Source: a virus
DNA length: 32,684 bases
Virus record (IMG/VR): IMGVR_UViG_3300030451_002260
Span: 1 to 32,684 of that record
Direction: 5' to 3' (one strand)
A program made the translations under genes and the position numbers. This document shows positions 3,383-25,714 of the stretch, one piece after another. Within the stretch, counting starts at the first letter, position 1. Each line of letters begins with the position of its first letter. The notes beneath the pieces are model-generated. The model saw only the letters and a list, made by a program, of their open reading frames with translations, was not told the DNA's origin and ran no database searches.

Positions 3383-3871
3383 TTGTCATTTGATGAAATG
3401 ATAGAAATTATACTTGGACACGAAGGTGGATATGTAAACGACAAGGCAGACTCAGGCGGAGAAACCAATTGGGGAATCTCAAAAAGAGCATTTCCTGATG
3501 TAGACATAAAAAATCTTACCAAGCAACAAGCTAAAAATATATACAGAACGCATTATTTTGTACGTTCTAGGGCAAAAGAATTGCCAAGCAACATAAGACT
3601 AACATATTTCGATATGTGCGTTAATATGGGGCAAAGAAGGGCGGTCAAGATTTTACAAAAAGCAATCAATGGTAAGGGAAAATACAAGGTAGAAGTAGAT
3701 GGTCGCATCGGTCCAAACACTATCAGGTCAAGCAAAGGTCTCGAAAACGAAAGGCTAAAATCTTATAAAGTATTATTCTATGCCGAAATAGTAATCAGGA
3801 AACCATCACAAGAAAAGTTTTGGTTTGGTTGGTATCGAAGGGGGATATATGACCATAAGAAAAAAGGATGA
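3383..3871 (+). CDS. Endolysin, GH108-type N-acetylmuramidase
   Basis: This peptidoglycan hydrolase should cut the glycan backbone of the host wall. Residues 14-20 (EGGYVND) and 25-33 (GGETNWGIS) are the signature of glycoside hydrolase family 108, with Glu14 the expected catalytic acid. The C-terminal half (VDGRIGPNTI and onward, ending FWFGWYRRG) matches the peptidoglycan-binding domain usually fused to it. At 162 residues it has typical length. It has no signal peptide, so export needs a holin. The start is a TTG six bases after GGAG; the first ATG would remove five residues. It overlaps the next gene by 23 bases. Confidence 0.88.
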   Translation: MSFDEMIEIILGHEGGYVNDKADSGGETNWGISKRAFPDVDIKNLTKQQAKNIYRTHYFVRSRAKELPSNIRLTYFDMCVNMGQRRAVKILQKAINGKGKYKVEVDGRIGPNTIRSSKGLENERLKSYKVLFYAEIVIRKPSQEKFWFGWYRRGIYDHKKKG

Positions 3872-14490: not shown

Positions 14491-14727
14491 TTAGATTTGC
14501 GAGTTTGTAGTCGCGTTATTACTAGATAGTAATTCATTGTAATTTCTAGCTACAGATAAAAACGTCATCAACTTATCCCACTTATCATCTGATAATTTTC
14601 TTTGACCACTTAATACAAGACTCATCATTGAAGTGCTTATACCTAGATGTTTAGCTATGAAAGATTGCTTAACACCTGAGTCAATAATTTGACGTTTAAC
14701 TATTTCAAGCATATTTGAGTTCTGCAT
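14491..14727 (-). CDS. Cro/XRE-type helix-turn-helix protein, likely repressor
   Basis: This 78-residue DNA-binding protein is encoded last in the leftward operon. Residues 18-60 hold the helix-turn-helix: KQSFIAKHLGIS as the first two helices and TSMMSLVLSGQRKLSDDKWD as recognition helix and turn, the classic XRE/Cro pattern with L-S-G-x-R. There is no dimerisation or peptidase domain like that of CI. The start overlaps the upstream gene by 23 bases; ATG 14712 is an alternative without a site. An autoregulator of this operon, acting on palindromes near 17378 and 17480, is inferred. No integrase or CI partner is present. Confidence 0.8.
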   Translation of the reverse strand: MQNSNMLEIVKRQIIDSGVKQSFIAKHLGISTSMMSLVLSGQRKLSDDKWDKLMTFLSVARNYNELLSSNNATTNSQI

Positions 14728-15424
14728 TTTCAGGTTTGTCCCATTCTGCGATTATACATTTCGAAGCAAGAAAATTTAAAAAATGACTCTCATCTTCAAA
14801 TGGTAGTTTAGAGTTTCTATGGAATTTATGCAAACGATTATTTACAGATTCCATGTACTCAACGTTGTTTCTTACATCTTCATCAAATGTTCTAGACTTA
14901 AACATCCTAACTATTTCAGATGCATTTCCTGATACCTTGTTTTCATCAACGATAACATTCCATCTGACATTTGAATTTCTGTCTACGTTAAAATAGCCAT
15001 TGTAGATTGGTTTACATCTTTGGGCTACCGAACTATGGCTTGAGACATAAAACTCCGCTATGCCCCTGATATCCCGCTTAATTAAGCCATCCTTATCCCA
15101 CTTCTCGATTGAAAATTCAAAGTTTTCAGCTTTATAATGAGTCGGTACTCCTTCTAGGGTTCGGATGTACTTTAAGGTTTTCATTGACACTTTCCAAACT
15201 TCGCCTAATACCTTATACTCATCTGTTCCTGTTTGATTGTAAAAGTCTTGAAGTATGGCAACTGGTACGTCTCGCTTATGTAAGATGTATGGAAACCAAC
15301 CATTGTTAAACATATAATGATTGTCTAGATAGGTTCTGCCTATGTACTCAGAGTTTCTGAGTAGAAAGTTGTTCTTTCCGCCTACCTTCAAAGTTCCATA
15401 CACAAATATGTATTTACTTTTCAT
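14705..15424 (-). CDS. Gamma-glutamylcyclotransferase-like (AIG2/GGCT) protein
   Basis: This 239-residue protein has an N-terminal GGCT-fold domain. FVYGTLK (7-13) is the family's substrate-binding loop, and LGEVWKV (73-79) with TLEGVPTHY (89-97) gives the expected catalytic glutamate, Glu91. Family members release 5-oxoproline from gamma-glutamyl amines or peptides. Residues from about 115 onward form an extra basic domain I do not recognise (VAQRCKPIYNGYFNVDRNSN, DEDVRNNVEYMESVNNRL); typical members stop near 120-150 residues. AAAGGAT lies 8 bases upstream of the ATG. It follows the glutamine amidotransferase by 4 bases, and Iyer and colleagues noted AIG2-type cyclotransferases beside amidoligases in prokaryotes and phages. 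Confidence 0.82.
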   Translation of the reverse strand: MKSKYIFVYGTLKVGGKNNFLLRNSEYIGRTYLDNHYMFNNGWFPYILHKRDVPVAILQDFYNQTGTDEYKVLGEVWKVSMKTLKYIRTLEGVPTHYKAENFEFSIEKWDKDGLIKRDIRGIAEFYVSSHSSVAQRCKPIYNGYFNVDRNSNVRWNVIVDENKVSGNASEIVRMFKSRTFDEDVRNNVEYMESVNNRLHKFHRNSKLPFEDESHFLNFLASKCIIAEWDKPENAELKYA

Positions 15425-15428
15425 CTTA

Positions 15429-16373
15429 TTATCCTTTTATCTTTTTAATAGTTGAGCCATCTGATGCCTTGAACATCTCTAGCTGGTCGCGATAGCTGAA
15501 TCGAGGAACAAAGTTATCTACTGTCTCTTCATAGTTTCGGTCAAATGTGAAACGCTTGGTAGGAGTAAACCGAGGATTCCTCACTTTCCTCTGATACGCT
15601 CCTATCTTGTGATTGTATATTCTGTTTGAATACTTAGGTTGTAGAATCTTGACACTTGATACTTTGTACTTCAATGTCCGCGTATCTATGCGAACCAATG
15701 TATTTGCCTTGATTGGTACTTCCTTCAATCCTGATATCCCTGACTTGCGAACTGTGTTTACTGTACTTCCATAAATAAAAGCGTCATATTCGCGGGAATA
15801 ATAGCATTCAAGCGGATTATTGCCCTTGTAGAGATATACAATATTTGGGTTCTTAGTATCAGCCCAAACCATCGAAACTCTACCTCTAACTTTTGGTAGC
15901 CTATTGACTACAAAGTCTTTGATATCTTTAGCTGTAGCAAACAATCTAAACAGTACCTCACTATCCACTTGAGCAAAACGCTTCATCTTGAATTGCTTGA
16001 ATAGACTCTTGTGATTCTGTACCGAACCATTATGAGTTCCGATAACTGACCGCGTTCTGATTGGATGATTATTAGCATTGTTATGCCTACTTCCTAAAGT
16101 TCCAAACCTAGTATGTCCCATGATTATACTTGTCGTTCCATCTACTAGGTCTAAGGCTGAAACAGTATCTTCAGAGTTCACAAAATCGGTTGCGGGATTT
16201 GGTGCTTTATGAATCAGGAACTCGCTTGATGAATCTATGATTGCAAATCCAGTTGCATGATTCCCGCGTTTCTCTGCCTCAATTAACATATCCCGAAACC
16301 CTTTGGTGATTAGGGCGGTTTGATGTTCCGCCCTATCTTTTTGTTTTAGTATTACACCTGCTAATCCGCACAT
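15429..16373 (-). CDS. Class II glutamine amidotransferase (Ntn-type)
   Basis: I start this 314-residue protein at ATG 16373, so that Met removal exposes Cys2 (MCGLAGVI), the N-terminal nucleophile of class II glutaminases. A GTG nine bases upstream would bury the Cys. GGAGG lies in the upstream gene's last codons. RGNHATGF (36-43), GHTRFGT (86-92), NNHP (101-104), GTHNGSV (112-118) and QVDSE (135-139) are glutamine-site and oxyanion-hole elements. It should hydrolyse glutamine and pass ammonia to an acceptor. The C-terminal 140 residues contain no synthetase domain of GlmS, PurF or AsnB type, so the adjoining amidoligase is the natural partner. Confidence 0.9.
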   Translation of the reverse strand: MCGLAGVILKQKDRAEHQTALITKGFRDMLIEAEKRGNHATGFAIIDSSSEFLIHKAPNPATDFVNSEDTVSALDLVDGTTSIIMGHTRFGTLGSRHNNANNHPIRTRSVIGTHNGSVQNHKSLFKQFKMKRFAQVDSEVLFRLFATAKDIKDFVVNRLPKVRGRVSMVWADTKNPNIVYLYKGNNPLECYYSREYDAFIYGSTVNTVRKSGISGLKEVPIKANTLVRIDTRTLKYKVSSVKILQPKYSNRIYNHKIGAYQRKVRNPRFTPTKRFTFDRNYEETVDNFVPRFSYRDQLEMFKASDGSTIKKIKG

Positions 16374-16374
16374 C

Positions 16375-17331
16375 TTAAACACCTCCCATTACATATTCAT
16401 AATCTCTTGCTCTTGTGTAGTCTGCTTCCCTTCTGTTGAACTTGGTGAATGTTTTCTTCATCCATTCGTTAGCTTCTTGACCATGTCCACAGCTTGTCTT
16501 GTCTAAGCCTAGTGCTTTTCTGAATTTGCCCATTCCCTTTCTTCCGCCATCAACATAGCTTAGATGCACAGTTCTCTTTGATTCAACAGCATTTAACATC
16601 ATCTGAGTTACTACAATCCAGTTGGATATCTTTTCGTAGTTCAAAGAACCTTGATGATATCTGAACTCGATACTTCCGCGAGTAAAGACATGATACATAT
16701 TCAATCCGCAAGTTCTACTGTACTGTGTTCTGCTCATACGCTCACCGCCTACACAAGCCTTTACTTGCTTTTTGACTTTCTCATTCTTCTCAGTTCCGCC
16801 ATTCATTAGGCTGTACATTGGAGCACCGTCTACGTAGTATGTCTTGCGAACTGGTGTGGAGAACTGGCGAGATAATCTACTTGGAGCAATTAGCTTGTAG
16901 ATGCAATGTTCGAATTTTGCAACGAACTTGATTGTCTTTTCGATGAAAGCTTGAGCATCTTTTTTCTGTGCTTCCCTGATTGTAGGTCTAACATCATGAT
17001 GAACATGTAATCCGCAAGATGCATTTACTGTACATCCCAAGTCATTCAATACTTCAAGGACTGTATTTAGTATGATGAATCCGTTGTTCTCTCCGCTAAG
17101 TATTGGGCTAACAATTTCGTTACGACCGATTTGGTCAGGAGTAGTTGCCCTTACTGATGAATCGCTAACAATCTTCCACCATCTTCTAGTTTCGTGGTTG
17201 TATCCTTCTACTCTGCAGTCAATCCCTCTTGCAGATATTCTTGATGCGATGTCCTGATTAGTTACTACCGCTGGTCTTGAGTATTCTATCTCTACTCCGA
17301 AACCTCTTGTTTGATTAAAAACTCCTTTCAT
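16375..17331 (-). CDS. GS-like amidoligase (COOH-NH2 ligase, Amidoligase_2 type)
   Basis: The 318-residue protein carries the hallmarks of the glutamine-synthetase-fold amidoligases: GVEIEY (12-17), SDSSV (56-60), NEIVSPIL (71-78), CGLHVHHD (106-113) and SIEFRYHQG (220-228), which should bind metal, ATP and substrate. Such enzymes form amide bonds between a carboxylate and an amine or ammonia; here the substrate is unknown. I place the start at 17331 because GAGGAG lies six bases upstream; an in-frame ATG at 17376 would add 15 Asn/Thr-rich residues. One base separates it from the amidotransferase. It is the first gene of the leftward operon, behind a TTGACA promoter. Confidence 0.88.
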   Translation of the reverse strand: MKGVFNQTRGFGVEIEYSRPAVVTNQDIASRISARGIDCRVEGYNHETRRWWKIVSDSSVRATTPDQIGRNEIVSPILSGENNGFIILNTVLEVLNDLGCTVNASCGLHVHHDVRPTIREAQKKDAQAFIEKTIKFVAKFEHCIYKLIAPSRLSRQFSTPVRKTYYVDGAPMYSLMNGGTEKNEKVKKQVKACVGGERMSRTQYSRTCGLNMYHVFTRGSIEFRYHQGSLNYEKISNWIVVTQMMLNAVESKRTVHLSYVDGGRKGMGKFRKALGLDKTSCGHGQEANEWMKKTFTKFNRREADYTRARDYEYVMGGV

Positions 17332-17363
17332 GTTTGACTCCTCATTTGTGTTTTGGTTGTTTG

Positions 17364-17378
17364 TGTCATTTGTCATGG
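17364..17378 (-). repeat. Mirror leader repeat, left copy (CCATGACAAATGACA)
   Basis: Read on the minus strand this starts five bases after the -10 of the leftward promoter and contains an in-frame ATG at 17376. The same sequence with one change (CCATGACAAATGATA) lies on the plus strand at 17536-17550, also five bases after a -10-like hexamer. The pair is an inverted repeat of 15 bases with 14 identities. Confidence 0.7.
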
Positions 17379-17394
17379 TTAAATGTAGTTTAAC
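17378..17394. promoter_or_regulatory. Palindromic operator candidate (GTTAAA-N5-TTTAAC)
   Basis: Perfect 6-bp arms flank TGTAG and cover the -10 of the leftward promoter, where a bound repressor would block it. The Cro-like protein at the end of the same operon is the likely ligand. That pairing is inference. Confidence 0.5.
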
Positions 17395-17411
17395 GAAATA
17401 ATACTTGTCAA
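17382..17411 (-). promoter_or_regulatory. Leftward sigma70-type promoter for the amidoligase operon
   Basis: On the minus strand a perfect TTGACA (17411-17406) is followed after 18 bases by TACATT (17387-17382). Transcription would start near 17376-17374, at or just inside the upstream ATG of the amidoligase ORF. Translation from the Shine-Dalgarno start at 17331, or leaderless initiation at 17376, both fit. Confidence 0.6.
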
Positions 17412-17535: not shown

Positions 17536-17550
17536 CCATGACAAATGATA
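17536..17550 (+). repeat. Mirror leader repeat, right copy (CCATGACAAATGATA)
   Basis: This is the partner of the minus-strand copy at 17364-17378. Its ATG (17538) is in frame with the Shine-Dalgarno-supported start at 17571 and would add eleven residues (MTNDNKQETQN). The left copy similarly adds MTNDTNNQNTNEESN to the amidoligase. Both extensions are short, Asn/Gln/Thr-rich and alike. Confidence 0.7.
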
Positions 17551-21957: not shown

Positions 21958-22169
21958 TGTACCTTTCTTGTCATTTAAAGTATTCAGGCGATACTAACAA
22001 CGTAACTGGTGGGATGTGTCCATTTTGCGGAATTTATAAAAAAGAAAAATATTGCGGGATAGCAAAACAAACTAATAAATTATCCGAGATGACAAAATGT
22101 CCATATAAACGCAAAAAAAGGATAACCACCTTAACCAATGCCTACAAAGACCTATTTGAAAAACGTTAA
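21957..22169 (+). CDS. Small Cys-rich, zinc-binding-like protein (70 aa)
   Basis: Cysteines at 5, 21, 24, 33 and 48 (CPFCGIYKKEKYC in the middle) suggest one zinc site, and the C-terminus is basic (CPYKRKKRITTLTN). The gene starts in a TAATG overlap and its 3' end overlaps the ParB-like gene by 32 bases. No family is recognised. Small zinc proteins recur in this block (23685 is another). Confidence 0.55.
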   Translation: MYLSCHLKYSGDTNNVTGGMCPFCGIYKKEKYCGIAKQTNKLSEMTKCPYKRKKRITTLTNAYKDLFEKR

Positions 22170-22743
22170 AAAAGTTGATTTCCCTGTCTCAGATTTAGTT
22201 GGTGCAGAGTATAACCCTAGACAGATTACAGAAAATCAATTTAACGAATTAAAGGAATCTATCCAAAAATTCGGATTTGTTGAACCTATAATAGCAAATA
22301 ATAATCCCGACAGATTAAACGTAGTAATTGGCGGACATCAAAGACTTAGAGTTGCAGAGTTTTTAAATATGGAATCTGTTCCTGTTGTATTTGTTAATCT
22401 AGATGAAGAATCAGAAAAAGAGTTAAATATAAGATTGAACGCTAATGGCGGTACTTGGAACTGGGATATGATTGCTAATGAATGGGATTATGACAAGCTA
22501 AGAAACTGGGGATTAAAAGTTCCAAACCCAACATTTGATTATCCCGAATTACTGGAAGGCGGAGAAGAATCAACACTTGGCGGGACTGAGGTAGAGAAAG
22601 GCAGAGATAGGACTGATTTTATAATTGACATCTCAAAAGAAAACAAAGCTGAATTGATGGAGATATTAAATAGAGTAAAGCTTGACCAGGAAATGACAGA
22701 TACGGAAGATGCTTTGATGTTTATAGTGAGGGCGTATGTTTAG
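22138..22743 (+). CDS. ParB/Srx-superfamily protein
   Basis: This 201-residue protein opens with VDFPVSDLVGAEYNPRQIT (NPR at 26-28) and GGHQRLRVAEFL (65-76), the two hallmark motifs of the ParB N-terminal domain, which binds nucleotide. LNIRLNANGGTWNWDMIANE follows, as in phage ParB-like proteins often found near methylases or PAPS-reductase-like enzymes. The C-terminal third is unassigned. There is no ParB-type helix-turn-helix centromere-binding domain, so plasmid partition is unlikely; a modification or nuclease-like role is more plausible. The ribosome binding site is weak. Confidence 0.8.
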   Translation: MPTKTYLKNVKKVDFPVSDLVGAEYNPRQITENQFNELKESIQKFGFVEPIIANNNPDRLNVVIGGHQRLRVAEFLNMESVPVVFVNLDEESEKELNIRLNANGGTWNWDMIANEWDYDKLRNWGLKVPNPTFDYPELLEGGEESTLGGTEVEKGRDRTDFIIDISKENKAELMEILNRVKLDQEMTDTEDALMFIVRAYV

Positions 22744-22930
22744 ACATTACTGGGAAGTAATATTCAGCACCGAGTATTTTCCATACTGGGAGTTTACTAT
22801 GTTGTGCGTTCTATGTTTAAATTTATCAGCACTTTATCACTTACATAAAATCAGAAATGAGTTTGAGATTTTAAAAGACGGACTCAAAGGCAAAAAGATA
22901 TGGTTCAGAAAGAAGCTAATGAAAAAGTAA
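22736..22930 (+). CDS. Small single-TM protein (64 aa)
   Basis: The 64-residue protein has a hydrophobic segment at about residues 17-36 (YWEFTMLCVLCLNLSALYHL) and a basic C-terminal tail (GLKGKKIWFRKKLMKK), so the tail should face the cytoplasm. It is embedded by overlaps in the ParB-to-bicupin stretch, starting within the ParB stop and overlapping the bicupin gene by 31 bases. Function is unknown. Confidence 0.55.
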   Translation: MFRHYWEVIFSTEYFPYWEFTMLCVLCLNLSALYHLHKIRNEFEILKDGLKGKKIWFRKKLMKK

Positions 22931-23688
22931 ACCCAAGCTTTAGTAGTTGGGATGATGAGCATGGCTTGTTGTATGATTACACAGAAAACAGATTTCCAGT
23001 AAAGCTTTATAATCACACCAAAAAAGATGCAAAATTTATTTGCGAAGAATCAAATGTTGGTCACTTCATATATGTTCGAACTGGTGAATATTCAATAGCC
23101 ACAAATAACAGGAAACCGATAAATATTACAGATGGTATGTTCGCAAGTGTTGGCGAAAAGTTTACCTTTACACAGCACACAGAAGGACAGGCGATTCTAA
23201 TTAAGATATATAATGAAAGCCCTTTTTTCTACGTTGGGGGACCAATAGAAAAAGAAGGAAGATTAAAATACATAGATGGCTGTACTGATTCGCTTTTAAT
23301 ATCCCCAACTAAATTGGGTTTGAGTTGTTTGAACCACTTGCATTTCCCAAAAGAAATAGACCAAACAATGCACACTCATCCATCAATGCGAGTTGGTATA
23401 GTTGCAAAAGGAAGCGGAAATTGTATAACGCCATTTGGGGACATTGAATTATACACAGGGCAAGTTTTTATTATACATGAAGAAACAGGGAATATTCACA
23501 AAGGTCTAGATGGTAAAATGCACCTTGAAGGTTCTCATTGTTTTCAAACATTTGAAGGAGAGATGGATGTAATTGCTTTTCATCCTGATTCAGACTATGG
23601 ACCGCAAGACGAAGAACATCCAATGATTAATAGAACCATTGTTGATGGCATAAGTGCGAAGTACATAGATGAAATCAGAACGCAATGA
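22900..23688 (+). CDS. Bicupin protein (metal-binding cupin)
   Basis: This 262-residue protein has two cupin-like halves. The first, at about residues 45-105 (HFIYVRTGEYSIATNN to FTFTQHTEGQAILIKI), lacks a full metal motif. The second, at about 140-230, has HTHPSMRVGIVAKGSGNCIT (158-177) with His158 and His160, then GQVFIIHEETGNIHKG and AFHPDSDYGP (226-235) with His228, enough for a metal site. Cupins include dioxygenases, isomerases and small-molecule sensors; the reaction here is unknown. Lying between a ParB-like protein and a PP-loop enzyme, it may take part in the same modification pathway. Confidence 0.75.
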   Translation: MVQKEANEKVNPSFSSWDDEHGLLYDYTENRFPVKLYNHTKKDAKFICEESNVGHFIYVRTGEYSIATNNRKPINITDGMFASVGEKFTFTQHTEGQAILIKIYNESPFFYVGGPIEKEGRLKYIDGCTDSLLISPTKLGLSCLNHLHFPKEIDQTMHTHPSMRVGIVAKGSGNCITPFGDIELYTGQVFIIHEETGNIHKGLDGKMHLEGSHCFQTFEGEMDVIAFHPDSDYGPQDEEHPMINRTIVDGISAKYIDEIRTQ

Positions 23689-23948
23689 GTCGGGATTTTG
23701 TAGTTTGGGGAAAGAAAAGGCAAAGTTCATATAAGCCTAAAAAATCAGGCAGATATAAAAACAAAGATTCAGAACAGGCAGATGCTAGAATCAAGTATTG
23801 TAAATACTGTTCTCATTGTTGGGAACGCGAATCTGCAAGAGGGGGAGACAAGGTTTGGTATTACAAAGACTTTGTAACCTATGGTAAACAGCGTTTAATG
23901 TGTCCAAAATGCGAGTTAGACAAAAAAGAGGTATCAAAGCATGGCTAG
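23685..23948 (+). CDS. Small zinc-ribbon protein (87 aa)
   Basis: The basic protein has CKYCSHC at residues 39-45 and CPKC at 73-76, a likely zinc ribbon, with a lysine/arginine-rich N-terminus (KKRQSSYKPKKSGRYKNKD). It starts on an ATGA overlap with the bicupin gene and ends 8 bases inside the PP-loop gene, so all three are translationally coupled. A nucleic-acid-binding helper of the PP-loop enzyme is a reasonable guess from this coupling alone. Confidence 0.62.
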   Translation: MSRDFVVWGKKRQSSYKPKKSGRYKNKDSEQADARIKYCKYCSHCWERESARGGDKVWYYKDFVTYGKQRLMCPKCELDKKEVSKHG

Positions 23949-25185
23949 TATCAGAAAAGCAAAAAGAATCGAAGCAAACGTATATGAAAAGGCGATAGAA
24001 CGAGTCAATTATTTATATGATTATTATGATAACGTAGTAGTCATGTTTTCAGGCGGTAAAGATTCAACCGCTGTTTTACAATTATGTCTTGAGGTAAGAG
24101 AACAAAGAGGAATCAAGAAACCTTTAGATGTGATATTTTTTGATGAGGAAGCAATACATCCGCCAACTATTGAGTACGTAGATAGGGTTTCAAAATTTCC
24201 TGATGTCAATTTAAAATGGTTCTGTTTACCAGTTAAGCATAGAAACGCCTGTTCGTATGAGCAACCATGGTGGTACACTTGGGACAGGAATAAAAAAGAC
24301 CTTTGGGTTCGCGAGTTACCTGAACAAGCAATAACTGACCATCCGCTTTGGAAGGATGATGCGGACATGGACGTTGAGAGTTTTACAAAACTGATGTATG
24401 AAGGAAAGCATTGGGCGGTTGTATTAGGTATAAGAACTCAGGAGTCAATCAGGAGATACAGGGCAATAGCTAGTAAGGAAGGAGAACTTGCTTGGTTACA
24501 GCAAAATAGAAGGGCAATGAATGTAGCTAAAGGTAAGCATCGGTATATAAGAGCAACAAATGGCTACCCTATTTATGATTGGACAAGTGAAGATGTTTGG
24601 AGATATGTATTAGAACGCGGATATGATTACAATAAGACGTATGACATATTTAATAAAACAGAACTTTATAACTCACTAGGGAAACAAAGAGTATGTCCGC
24701 CTTTTGGAGAAGAGCCATTGAGAAGTTTGCATTTGTACAAAGAATGTTTCCCTGAGTTATGGGATAAGATGTTAAATAGGGTTGAAGGGGTAGCTACGGC
24801 TATGAGATATGCCAATACTGAATTGTATGGAACTGGATTAGGTGCAAGTACCAAGAAAGAGGTAAAGCCTAGCAATCTTAGTTGGAGAGAGTTCTTTGAT
24901 GTTATACTTGATAACTATGATGGTCAAAAAGCAAAAGAAATCAAGGGCAATATCAATAGATTAATTAAAAGACATTATGGAGTTACTGATAATCCTGTAC
25001 CTGATGAAATACCGCACTTAATAAGCGGTGCAAGTTGGAAGTTCTTTACTAAGGTTCTATTGAAGGGTGATTTAAAGGCGAGACAGGCGGGAAGTATGCA
25101 GATATTGGGTAACTCAGAAAGAAAGAAACAAGGAATATCAGATAAGGAGGCGTTTGTTCGTTATGGCAAAAAAGAAGAAAAGTAG
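23941..25185 (+). CDS. PAPS-reductase-family PP-loop enzyme (IbrA/YbdN-like, DUF3440 type)
   Basis: This is a 414-residue ATP-pyrophosphatase. SGGKDSTAVLQL (residues 37-48) is the PP-loop, VIFFDEEAIHPPTIEYV lies where PAPS reductases hold substrate, and VVLGIRTQESIRRYRA and YPIYDWTSEDVWRYV are further family motifs. The length and C-terminal extension match the E. coli YbdN/IbrA group rather than CysH or DndC; no DndC-like cysteine cluster is apparent. Family members adenylate or thiolate small molecules or nucleic acid. In E. coli IbrA is encoded beside the ParB-like IbrB, as here with the gene at 25163. The physiological reaction is not known to me. Confidence 0.83.
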   Translation: MASIRKAKRIEANVYEKAIERVNYLYDYYDNVVVMFSGGKDSTAVLQLCLEVREQRGIKKPLDVIFFDEEAIHPPTIEYVDRVSKFPDVNLKWFCLPVKHRNACSYEQPWWYTWDRNKKDLWVRELPEQAITDHPLWKDDADMDVESFTKLMYEGKHWAVVLGIRTQESIRRYRAIASKEGELAWLQQNRRAMNVAKGKHRYIRATNGYPIYDWTSEDVWRYVLERGYDYNKTYDIFNKTELYNSLGKQRVCPPFGEEPLRSLHLYKECFPELWDKMLNRVEGVATAMRYANTELYGTGLGASTKKEVKPSNLSWREFFDVILDNYDGQKAKEIKGNINRLIKRHYGVTDNPVPDEIPHLISGASWKFFTKVLLKGDLKARQAGSMQILGNSERKKQGISDKEAFVRYGKKEEK

Positions 25186-25714
25186 TTGGGAAACTCAACC
25201 TATTAATGCCGTTCAATGGGTAGATAGGGAAAGGTTAAAACCTAATAACTATAATCCAAACAAGGTTGCTCCCGCAGAACTTAAACTATTAAAGATAAGC
25301 ATTCTTGAGAACGGTTGGACTCAGCCGATAGTTGCGAATCTTGAAAAAGAAATAGTAGATGGGTTTCATAGATGGACTGTATCAGGACATGATGAAATAA
25401 AAGAACTTACTAATGGGTTAGTTCCTGTAGTATGGTTGAAGAAGATGGACAGGACAACCACTCAAATGGCAACGATTAGGCATAACAGGGCAAGGGGAAA
25501 TCACTTAGTTCTTAATATGGCAGAGATAGTTAAAGAGATGATTGAAGCTAATTGTTCCATTGAGGAGATAATGTCTAGATTACAAATGGAAAAAGAAGAG
25601 GTTGTTAGACTCGCAAATAGGGTTGGAATCCCTCAGAGTGATTTGATTAGAGATACAGAATGGTCGAATGCTTGGATTCCAGTAAACAAGAATGAACTTG
25701 ATGAAACAAGTTGA
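25163..25714 (+). CDS. ParB/Srx-superfamily protein (IbrB/YbdM-like)
   Basis: The 183-residue protein starts at ATG 25163 behind a perfect AAGGAGG, inside the end of the PP-loop gene; a TTG at 25154 is less likely. LKPNNYNPNKV (25-35), IVDGFHRW (64-71) and TIRHNRARGNH (104-114) are the ParB-like nucleotide-binding motifs in the short IbrB-like form. A helical C-terminus (EIVKEMIEANCSIEEIMSRL) could be a small DNA-binding or partner-binding domain. It directly precedes the terminase genes, so it may be co-expressed with packaging. Confidence 0.8.
   Translation: MAKKKKSSWETQPINAVQWVDRERLKPNNYNPNKVAPAELKLLKISILENGWTQPIVANLEKEIVDGFHRWTVSGHDEIKELTNGLVPVVWLKKMDRTTTQMATIRHNRARGNHLVLNMAEIVKEMIEANCSIEEIMSRLQMEKEEVVRLANRVGIPQSDLIRDTEWSNAWIPVNKNELDETS

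Follow-up and report, generated by a model that had tools for sequence, protein, structure and literature searches.

The virus record IMGVR_UViG_3300030451_002260, analysed here over its full 32,684 bases (hereafter, the window), represents the whole or most of the genome of a marine tailed phage, in which the genes for a GH108 endolysin, tape measure protein, terminase and capsid are located at 3383, 8392, 26083 and 30723, respectively. All genes of the window point rightward, save four leftward ones at 14491-17376, which are also the only minus-strand open reading frames (ORFs) of at least 80 amino acids (aa) that do not overlie a longer plus-strand gene. In the order of transcription, this operon encodes an amidoligase of the glutamine synthetase (GS) fold, a class II glutamine amidotransferase, an AIG2-type cyclotransferase and a small helix-turn-helix (HTH) protein, with gaps of 1 nucleotide (nt) and 4 nt followed by a 23-nt overlap:

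16375..17331, minus strand (ORF open to 17376): GS-fold amidoligase (Amidoligase_2, PF12224), assigned from Pfam, the structural model and invariant residues
15429..16373, minus strand: class II glutamine amidotransferase (glutaminase domain with an N-terminal Cys nucleophile), assigned from PF13522 and a GlmS profile match
14705..15424, minus strand: AIG2/GGACT-like gamma-glutamyl cyclotransferase with a C-terminal extension of ~110 aa, assigned from PF06094 and a GGACT fold match
14491..14727, minus strand: Cro-like HTH protein, the last operon gene, assigned from PHROG repressor families

In L002 and L003, two related phages, the four genes are found in the same order with identities of 54-75%, which rules out chance ORFs. 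The original prediction, made from the sequence alone, had described four tightly packed minus-strand genes with complete catalytic motifs in all three enzymes; the ORFs, their spacing and their lone leftward status were all seen again, and every quoted motif is present in the translations.

The amidoligase matches the PF12224 profile with 95.0 bits, against a curated Pfam cut-off of 22. Its AlphaFold model, built on an alignment of 50 homologues, has a mean predicted local distance difference test score of 88.6, and the GS fold spans residues 22-319. The best PDB matches found with Foldseek are glutamine synthetases, bifunctional glutathione synthetase and YbdK, with gamma-glutamyl-methylamide synthetase also among the nearest folds; structural alignment yields a Z score of 13.4 over 239 residues for YbdK and of 13.4 over 227 residues for GS. 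Across the 50 sequences, D72, E87, H124, H126, R167, R221, E237 and R239 are invariant and E29/E31 nearly so. The metal- and phosphate-site residues of the GS catalytic fold (ExE, E, HxH and ExR) are all present, their one-to-one mapping onto GS residues being assumed from the motifs. By sequence, the protein had no match up to E 1 among solved proteins and none to the NCBIfam GS models, the link to GS coming only from the fold search. Overall, assignment of this protein to the GS-fold ligases is well supported, with ATP-dependent amide formation as its predicted activity. Structure prediction, one of the checks suggested at the outset, bore out the proposed GS-fold ligase, and the catalytic sites, the loss of which would have spoken against it, are intact across the relatives.

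The amidotransferase matches PF13522 with 57.4 bits (Pfam cut-off 27), and its closest solved relatives in profile searches are the glutaminase domains of GlmS (E 5e-26). It starts with MCGLAG, Cys2 being the nucleophile, and conserves C2, H87-T-R89, H114-N-G (THNG), D137 and a DSE motif; the marks of class II (N-terminal nucleophile, Ntn) enzymes, namely, Cys after Met, GHTR, THNG and DSE, are thus all in place. Class II amidotransferases pass ammonia to a synthase domain that is usually fused to them. The phage protein lacks a fused synthase domain, and the adjoining amidoligase is the only candidate for this role.

The cyclotransferase matches PF06094 with 37.6 bits (Pfam cut-off 22.8), and its model matches human GGACT (3juc), the closest characterised relative. 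The FVYGTLK loop and E91, which correspond to the YGSL-type loop and catalytic Glu of AIG2/GGCT enzymes, are invariant in 14 sequences. The C-terminal extension (14705-15070, ~110 aa), of which the lineage has a shorter form, had no convincing fold match in a search that covered it only as part of the complete model. For the HTH protein, matches are to repressor families in PHROG (best E 1.8e-6) and, only below cut-off, to Pfam families; it is 70-73% identical to proteins encoded at the same position in L002 and L003. Single-protein searches with P0002 and P0003 returned almost nothing.

Scanning viral contigs with the amidoligase alignment yielded 80 loci, and 50 amidoligase-bearing viral records were examined, including the 18 closest relatives (40-65% identity) and 32 distant ones (at most 38%). 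A search of the whole records identified the glutaminase and the cyclotransferase in 16 of the 18 closest relatives each, the two exceptions (L005 and L016) ending inside the glutaminase gene; wherever visible in this group, the order and strand of the trio are identical. The 32 distant records contain a cyclotransferase in 22 cases, a glutaminase in eight, both in four and neither in six, so that the totals across the 50 records amount to 38 and 24, respectively. In the viral loci with both the amidoligase and the glutaminase (near-duplicate contigs included), the glutaminase gene directly follows that of the amidoligase on the same strand, overlapping it or at a distance of up to 370 nt. A comparison set based on the 3'-phosphoadenosine-5'-phosphosulfate (PAPS) reductase gene comprised too few loci and was replaced by 43 viral records, each 14 kb or longer, chosen by an unrelated 16-mer, with L002 as a positive control. 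Neither partner was found in any of these 43 control records (Fisher tests, 9e-16 for the cyclotransferase and 2e-8 for the glutaminase; 1e-11 and 6e-4 when only the 32 distant homologues are counted). Similarly, phages with a related terminase in which no amidoligase was detectable, including records of 33 kb and 31 kb, also lack both partners. The expectation that the three genes travel together in phages is therefore upheld by the trio in 16 of the 18 close relatives and by its enrichment over the controls.

In L007-L019, the trio is co-oriented with its neighbours, lies between the early genes and the terminase gene, and comes without the HTH gene. By contrast, the window, L002 and L003 have it in the inverted orientation, with tail genes on one side and early genes on the other. 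Between the two phage subclades, the terminase and the product of the next gene still match at about 50-65%, and the genes adjoining the trio differ. The distinct orientation and placement in the two subclades indicate that the trio changed place and orientation as a unit in one lineage. The position upstream of the amidoligase is a variable slot adjoining a constant trio: as judged from motifs by eye, it is occupied by a glycosyltransferase-like gene in L011, L012, L017 and L019, accompanied by an epimerase-like gene in the first three, and by a C5-methyltransferase-like gene in L007 (8120-9211). A role of the cassette in base modification was considered and rejected, because no gene of this sort adjoins the operon in the window and what lies upstream differs from phage to phage, the trio being constant. 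Outside these phages, actinobacterial loci (L089-L094, mostly Streptomyces) contain two to three amidoligase-like ORFs, most with a convergent class II glutaminase gene nearby. The 4-kb contig L121 has no amidoligase gene but encodes, at 700-1269, a solitary class II glutaminase of 189 aa, a different gene, with a PAPS-reductase-like gene on either side.

The operon is most likely its own transcription unit, given that a divergent leader and promoter region lies at one end and a convergent hairpin at the other, in agreement with the separate control proposed previously:

17366..17378, minus strand: leader repeat CCATGACAAATGA, candidate operator upstream of the amidoligase gene, one half of an exact inverted pair
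17536..17548, plus strand: the other copy of this repeat, inverted relative to 17366-17378, in front of the divergent early gene
17382..17411, minus strand: sigma70-like promoter (TTGACA-18-TACATT) for the operon, with the TTGACA box conserved in L002 and L003
14345..14492, no strand assigned: intergenic region between convergent operons, containing a strong GC hairpin (fold z -3.5), likely a two-way terminator

The two inverted copies of the leader repeat are complementary at 13 of 13 positions; both are kept in L002, whereas L003 has one copy and a degenerate second. A search of the window allowing up to two mismatches revealed no further exact copy of the 12-mer of the repeat; for the 11-mer, ~0.04 exact copies are expected by chance. 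Overall, sites in the promoter scan were no more numerous than in shuffled sequences. The operon faces the tail operon across the hairpin region, and comparable GC-rich inverted repeats occupy the corresponding position in L002 and L003. The ATG at 17331 is likely a better start for the amidoligase than the opening of the frame at 17376, since GAGGAG lies a short distance before it, the model of the longer form is disordered over its first ~14 residues, and the stretch ahead of this ATG is leader sequence common to the divergent gene, all of which agrees with the start chosen originally.

Systems of this kind were predicted by Iyer et al. (2009), as cited in PMC10580990 and PMC10945688, and have been reported in other phages, so that the trio itself is not new. 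PMC5498523 describes a 'peptidoglycan modification cassette' of RIO-1-like podoviruses and lists the cyclotransferase as a peptidoglycan degradation enzyme. PMC10580990 reports PF12224 with PF13522 in >30 genomes of OM43-type phages. Phage ZRK32 has amidoligase, glutaminase, cyclotransferase and glutathione-synthase (ATP-grasp) genes, argued to function in nitrogen metabolism (PMC10945688), and clostridial prophages carry an amidoligase with a cyclotransferase (PMC11318856). We found the trio in CW02, ZRK32 and Arthrobacter phages. Like the window, podovirus cassettes of the RIO-1/phiEco32/CW02 type (Iyer 2009; Hardies 2013; PMC5498523) combine PF12224 (tested in CW02), PF13522 and PF06094 in one genome region. 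However, the multi-ligase cassettes additionally carry the phiEco32-type COOH-NH2 ligase PF14395, found in all four multi-ligase phages (CW02, Ab22, ZRK32 and, weakly and below cut-off, Vibrio 172P1), and three of the four encode a RimK-like ATP-grasp protein; the same searches yielded no match to either in the window or five relatives. Accordingly, as judged from domain content, there are two cassette subtypes, namely, multi-ligase (PF14395 and mostly RimK) and single-ligase (the window lineage and Arthrobacter phages). The window has the complete trio but not the additional PF14395 and ATP-grasp genes, and its operon is a single-ligase variant of the published cassettes, to which an HTH gene and a divergent control region of its own are added. 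In Arthrobacter phages Ottawa, Wheelbite and relatives, as in the window, the amidoligase gene is followed by the glutaminase gene on the same strand, with no PF14395 or RimK; the cyclotransferase gene is located just upstream. Their amidoligases are ~29-33% identical to that of the window, the gene order differs, and these cassettes have no HTH gene annotated at the end and no divergent control region that we could see. OM43 phages MEP401, MEP402 and relatives resemble the window by description, being marine and carrying PF12224 and PF13522, but the passages on them in PMC10580990 do not mention a cyclotransferase. Among cellular enzymes, PuuA/GmaS and GGACT have the same folds as the window enzymes and, by motif, apparently the same catalytic chemistry, although PuuA/GmaS are <15% identical in sequence to the ligase. 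The idea, raised by CW02 gp2, that a C26 gamma-glutamyl hydrolase takes the place of the cyclotransferase as a non-homologous substitute was considered and discarded, as CW02 has both and C26 occurs in one of 30 records.

Taken together, these results make it probable that the operon is a self-contained module in which a glutaminase-fed GS-fold ligase forms an amide, the cyclotransferase removes gamma-glutamyl groups and a Cro-like protein acts as the regulator. The glutaminase and amide-forming steps are well supported as family chemistry; the transfer of ammonia, the direction of each reaction, the regulation and its timing are presumptive. The amidotransferase would hydrolyse glutamine and deliver ammonia to the amidoligase (or serve as a glutamine-specific amine donor), with the latter taking the place of the synthase domain normally fused to class II amidotransferases. 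The amidoligase would use ATP to activate a carboxylate as an acyl phosphate, as in glutamine synthetase, and form the amide. The cyclotransferase would strip the product, or an unwanted gamma-glutamyl side product, of a gamma-glutamyl group in the form of 5-oxoproline. The divergent promoter region of the operon would probably be repressed by the Cro-like protein itself, so that expression is confined to early infection. A more specific version of this scheme, in which the GS-fold ligase and the free-standing glutaminase form a two-part amidotransferase that makes a new amide of a host molecule early in infection, with editing by the cyclotransferase and Cro-like autoregulation, can be put forward tentatively.

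Several observations weigh against the module. The literature searched, excluding Iyer 2009 and Hardies 2013, contained no measured product of a phage amidoligase cassette, in line with the initial caution that the product in phages was unproven. Relatedness among many of the records in the counts means that the p-values overstate independence. Furthermore, 24 of the 32 distant amidoligase records have no PF13522 glutaminase, indicating that the amidoligase does not always depend on one and may use free ammonia or another amine. Finally, that the Cro-like protein binds the leader repeats is something we infer. As for the acceptor, none of these data favour the suggested free glutamate or peptidoglycan over another acid, nor do they favour host-wall alteration over modification of other acids. 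The proposed defence function also found little backing: the three enzymes had no match among the PADLOC anti-phage models and the HTH protein matches PDC-M69A weakly (22.8 bits), and we rejected a defence system.

Among the rival explanations, alteration of the envelope is possible, if doubtful: by analogy, a carboxylate of peptidoglycan precursors (the D-isoglutamate alpha-carboxyl or meso-diaminopimelate, mDAP) would be amidated against superinfection or untimely lysis. Amidation of mDAP by the class II amidotransferase enzymes LtsA/AsnB is an established precedent, and the endolysin of the window, a GH108 enzyme, hydrolyses glycan and need not be blocked by amidated stems. However, cyclotransferases of this fold require a free alpha-amine on the gamma-glutamyl residue and attack L-glutamyl gamma-amides, whereas in the normal peptidoglycan stem the amine of D-Glu is bound to L-alanine. 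Amidation of gamma-D-Glu followed by cyclotransferase cleavage would therefore be chemically awkward, and the operon has no transport, lipid II or membrane component. For the same reason, the cyclotransferase is unlikely to degrade peptidoglycan, as listed in PMC5498523, and more likely edits a small gamma-glutamyl compound. The wall function given in PMC5498523 and PMC10580990 for homologous cassettes of the phiEco32/RIO-1 type is itself a prediction by analogy.

Rather unlikely, in our view, is gamma-glutamyl conjugation, whereby the gamma-carboxyl of free glutamate would be joined to amines, as by PuuA/GmaS, and the GGACT-like enzyme would reverse the reaction, handling an amine or protein lysine, with the amidotransferase supplying glutamate and ammonia. 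GGACT, which acts on gamma-glutamyl-lysine, is the nearest characterised cyclotransferase, the folds nearest to the ligase include glutamine synthetases, YbdK and gamma-glutamyl-methylamide synthetase, and distant amidoligases are linked to the cyclotransferase more often than to the glutaminase (22 versus 8 of 32). Nevertheless, conjugation leaves unexplained why the glutaminase adjoins the amidoligase in all 18 close relatives (two of them cut at the contig end), and nothing would be gained by making a bond only to cleave it again, unless another step intervened. Auxiliary genes for host nitrogen assimilation or recycling during infection, as proposed for ZRK32 (PMC10945688), appear improbable: the amidoligase is no canonical GS, matching no NCBIfam GS model, ammonia drawn from glutamine brings no nitrogen gain, and the ZRK32 evidence is the growth of phage-treated cultures, with no gene tests. 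That the enzymes are independent accessory genes that merely adjoin in one phage lineage is hardly credible; although within the lineage the operon is inherited along with the rest of the phage, the same trio is found in unrelated phages, with strong enrichment over controls, and it stayed together when its position and orientation changed. What phage amidoligase cassettes make has been a matter of prediction since 2009, and tests on the larger cassettes are confounded by their several ligases. With a single ligase, a single glutaminase and a single cyclotransferase under their own promoter, the operon of the window is a very small natural set, suited to testing this prediction biochemically.

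Elsewhere in the window, a cupin-like protein (22900-23688) without a Pfam or PHROG match is conserved in L002 and L003. It is encoded within the region 22138-25714, in which a PAPS-reductase/DUF3440 protein (23941-25185) is flanked by ParB_N-type proteins (22138-22743 and 25154-25714), resembling IbrA/IbrB pairs.

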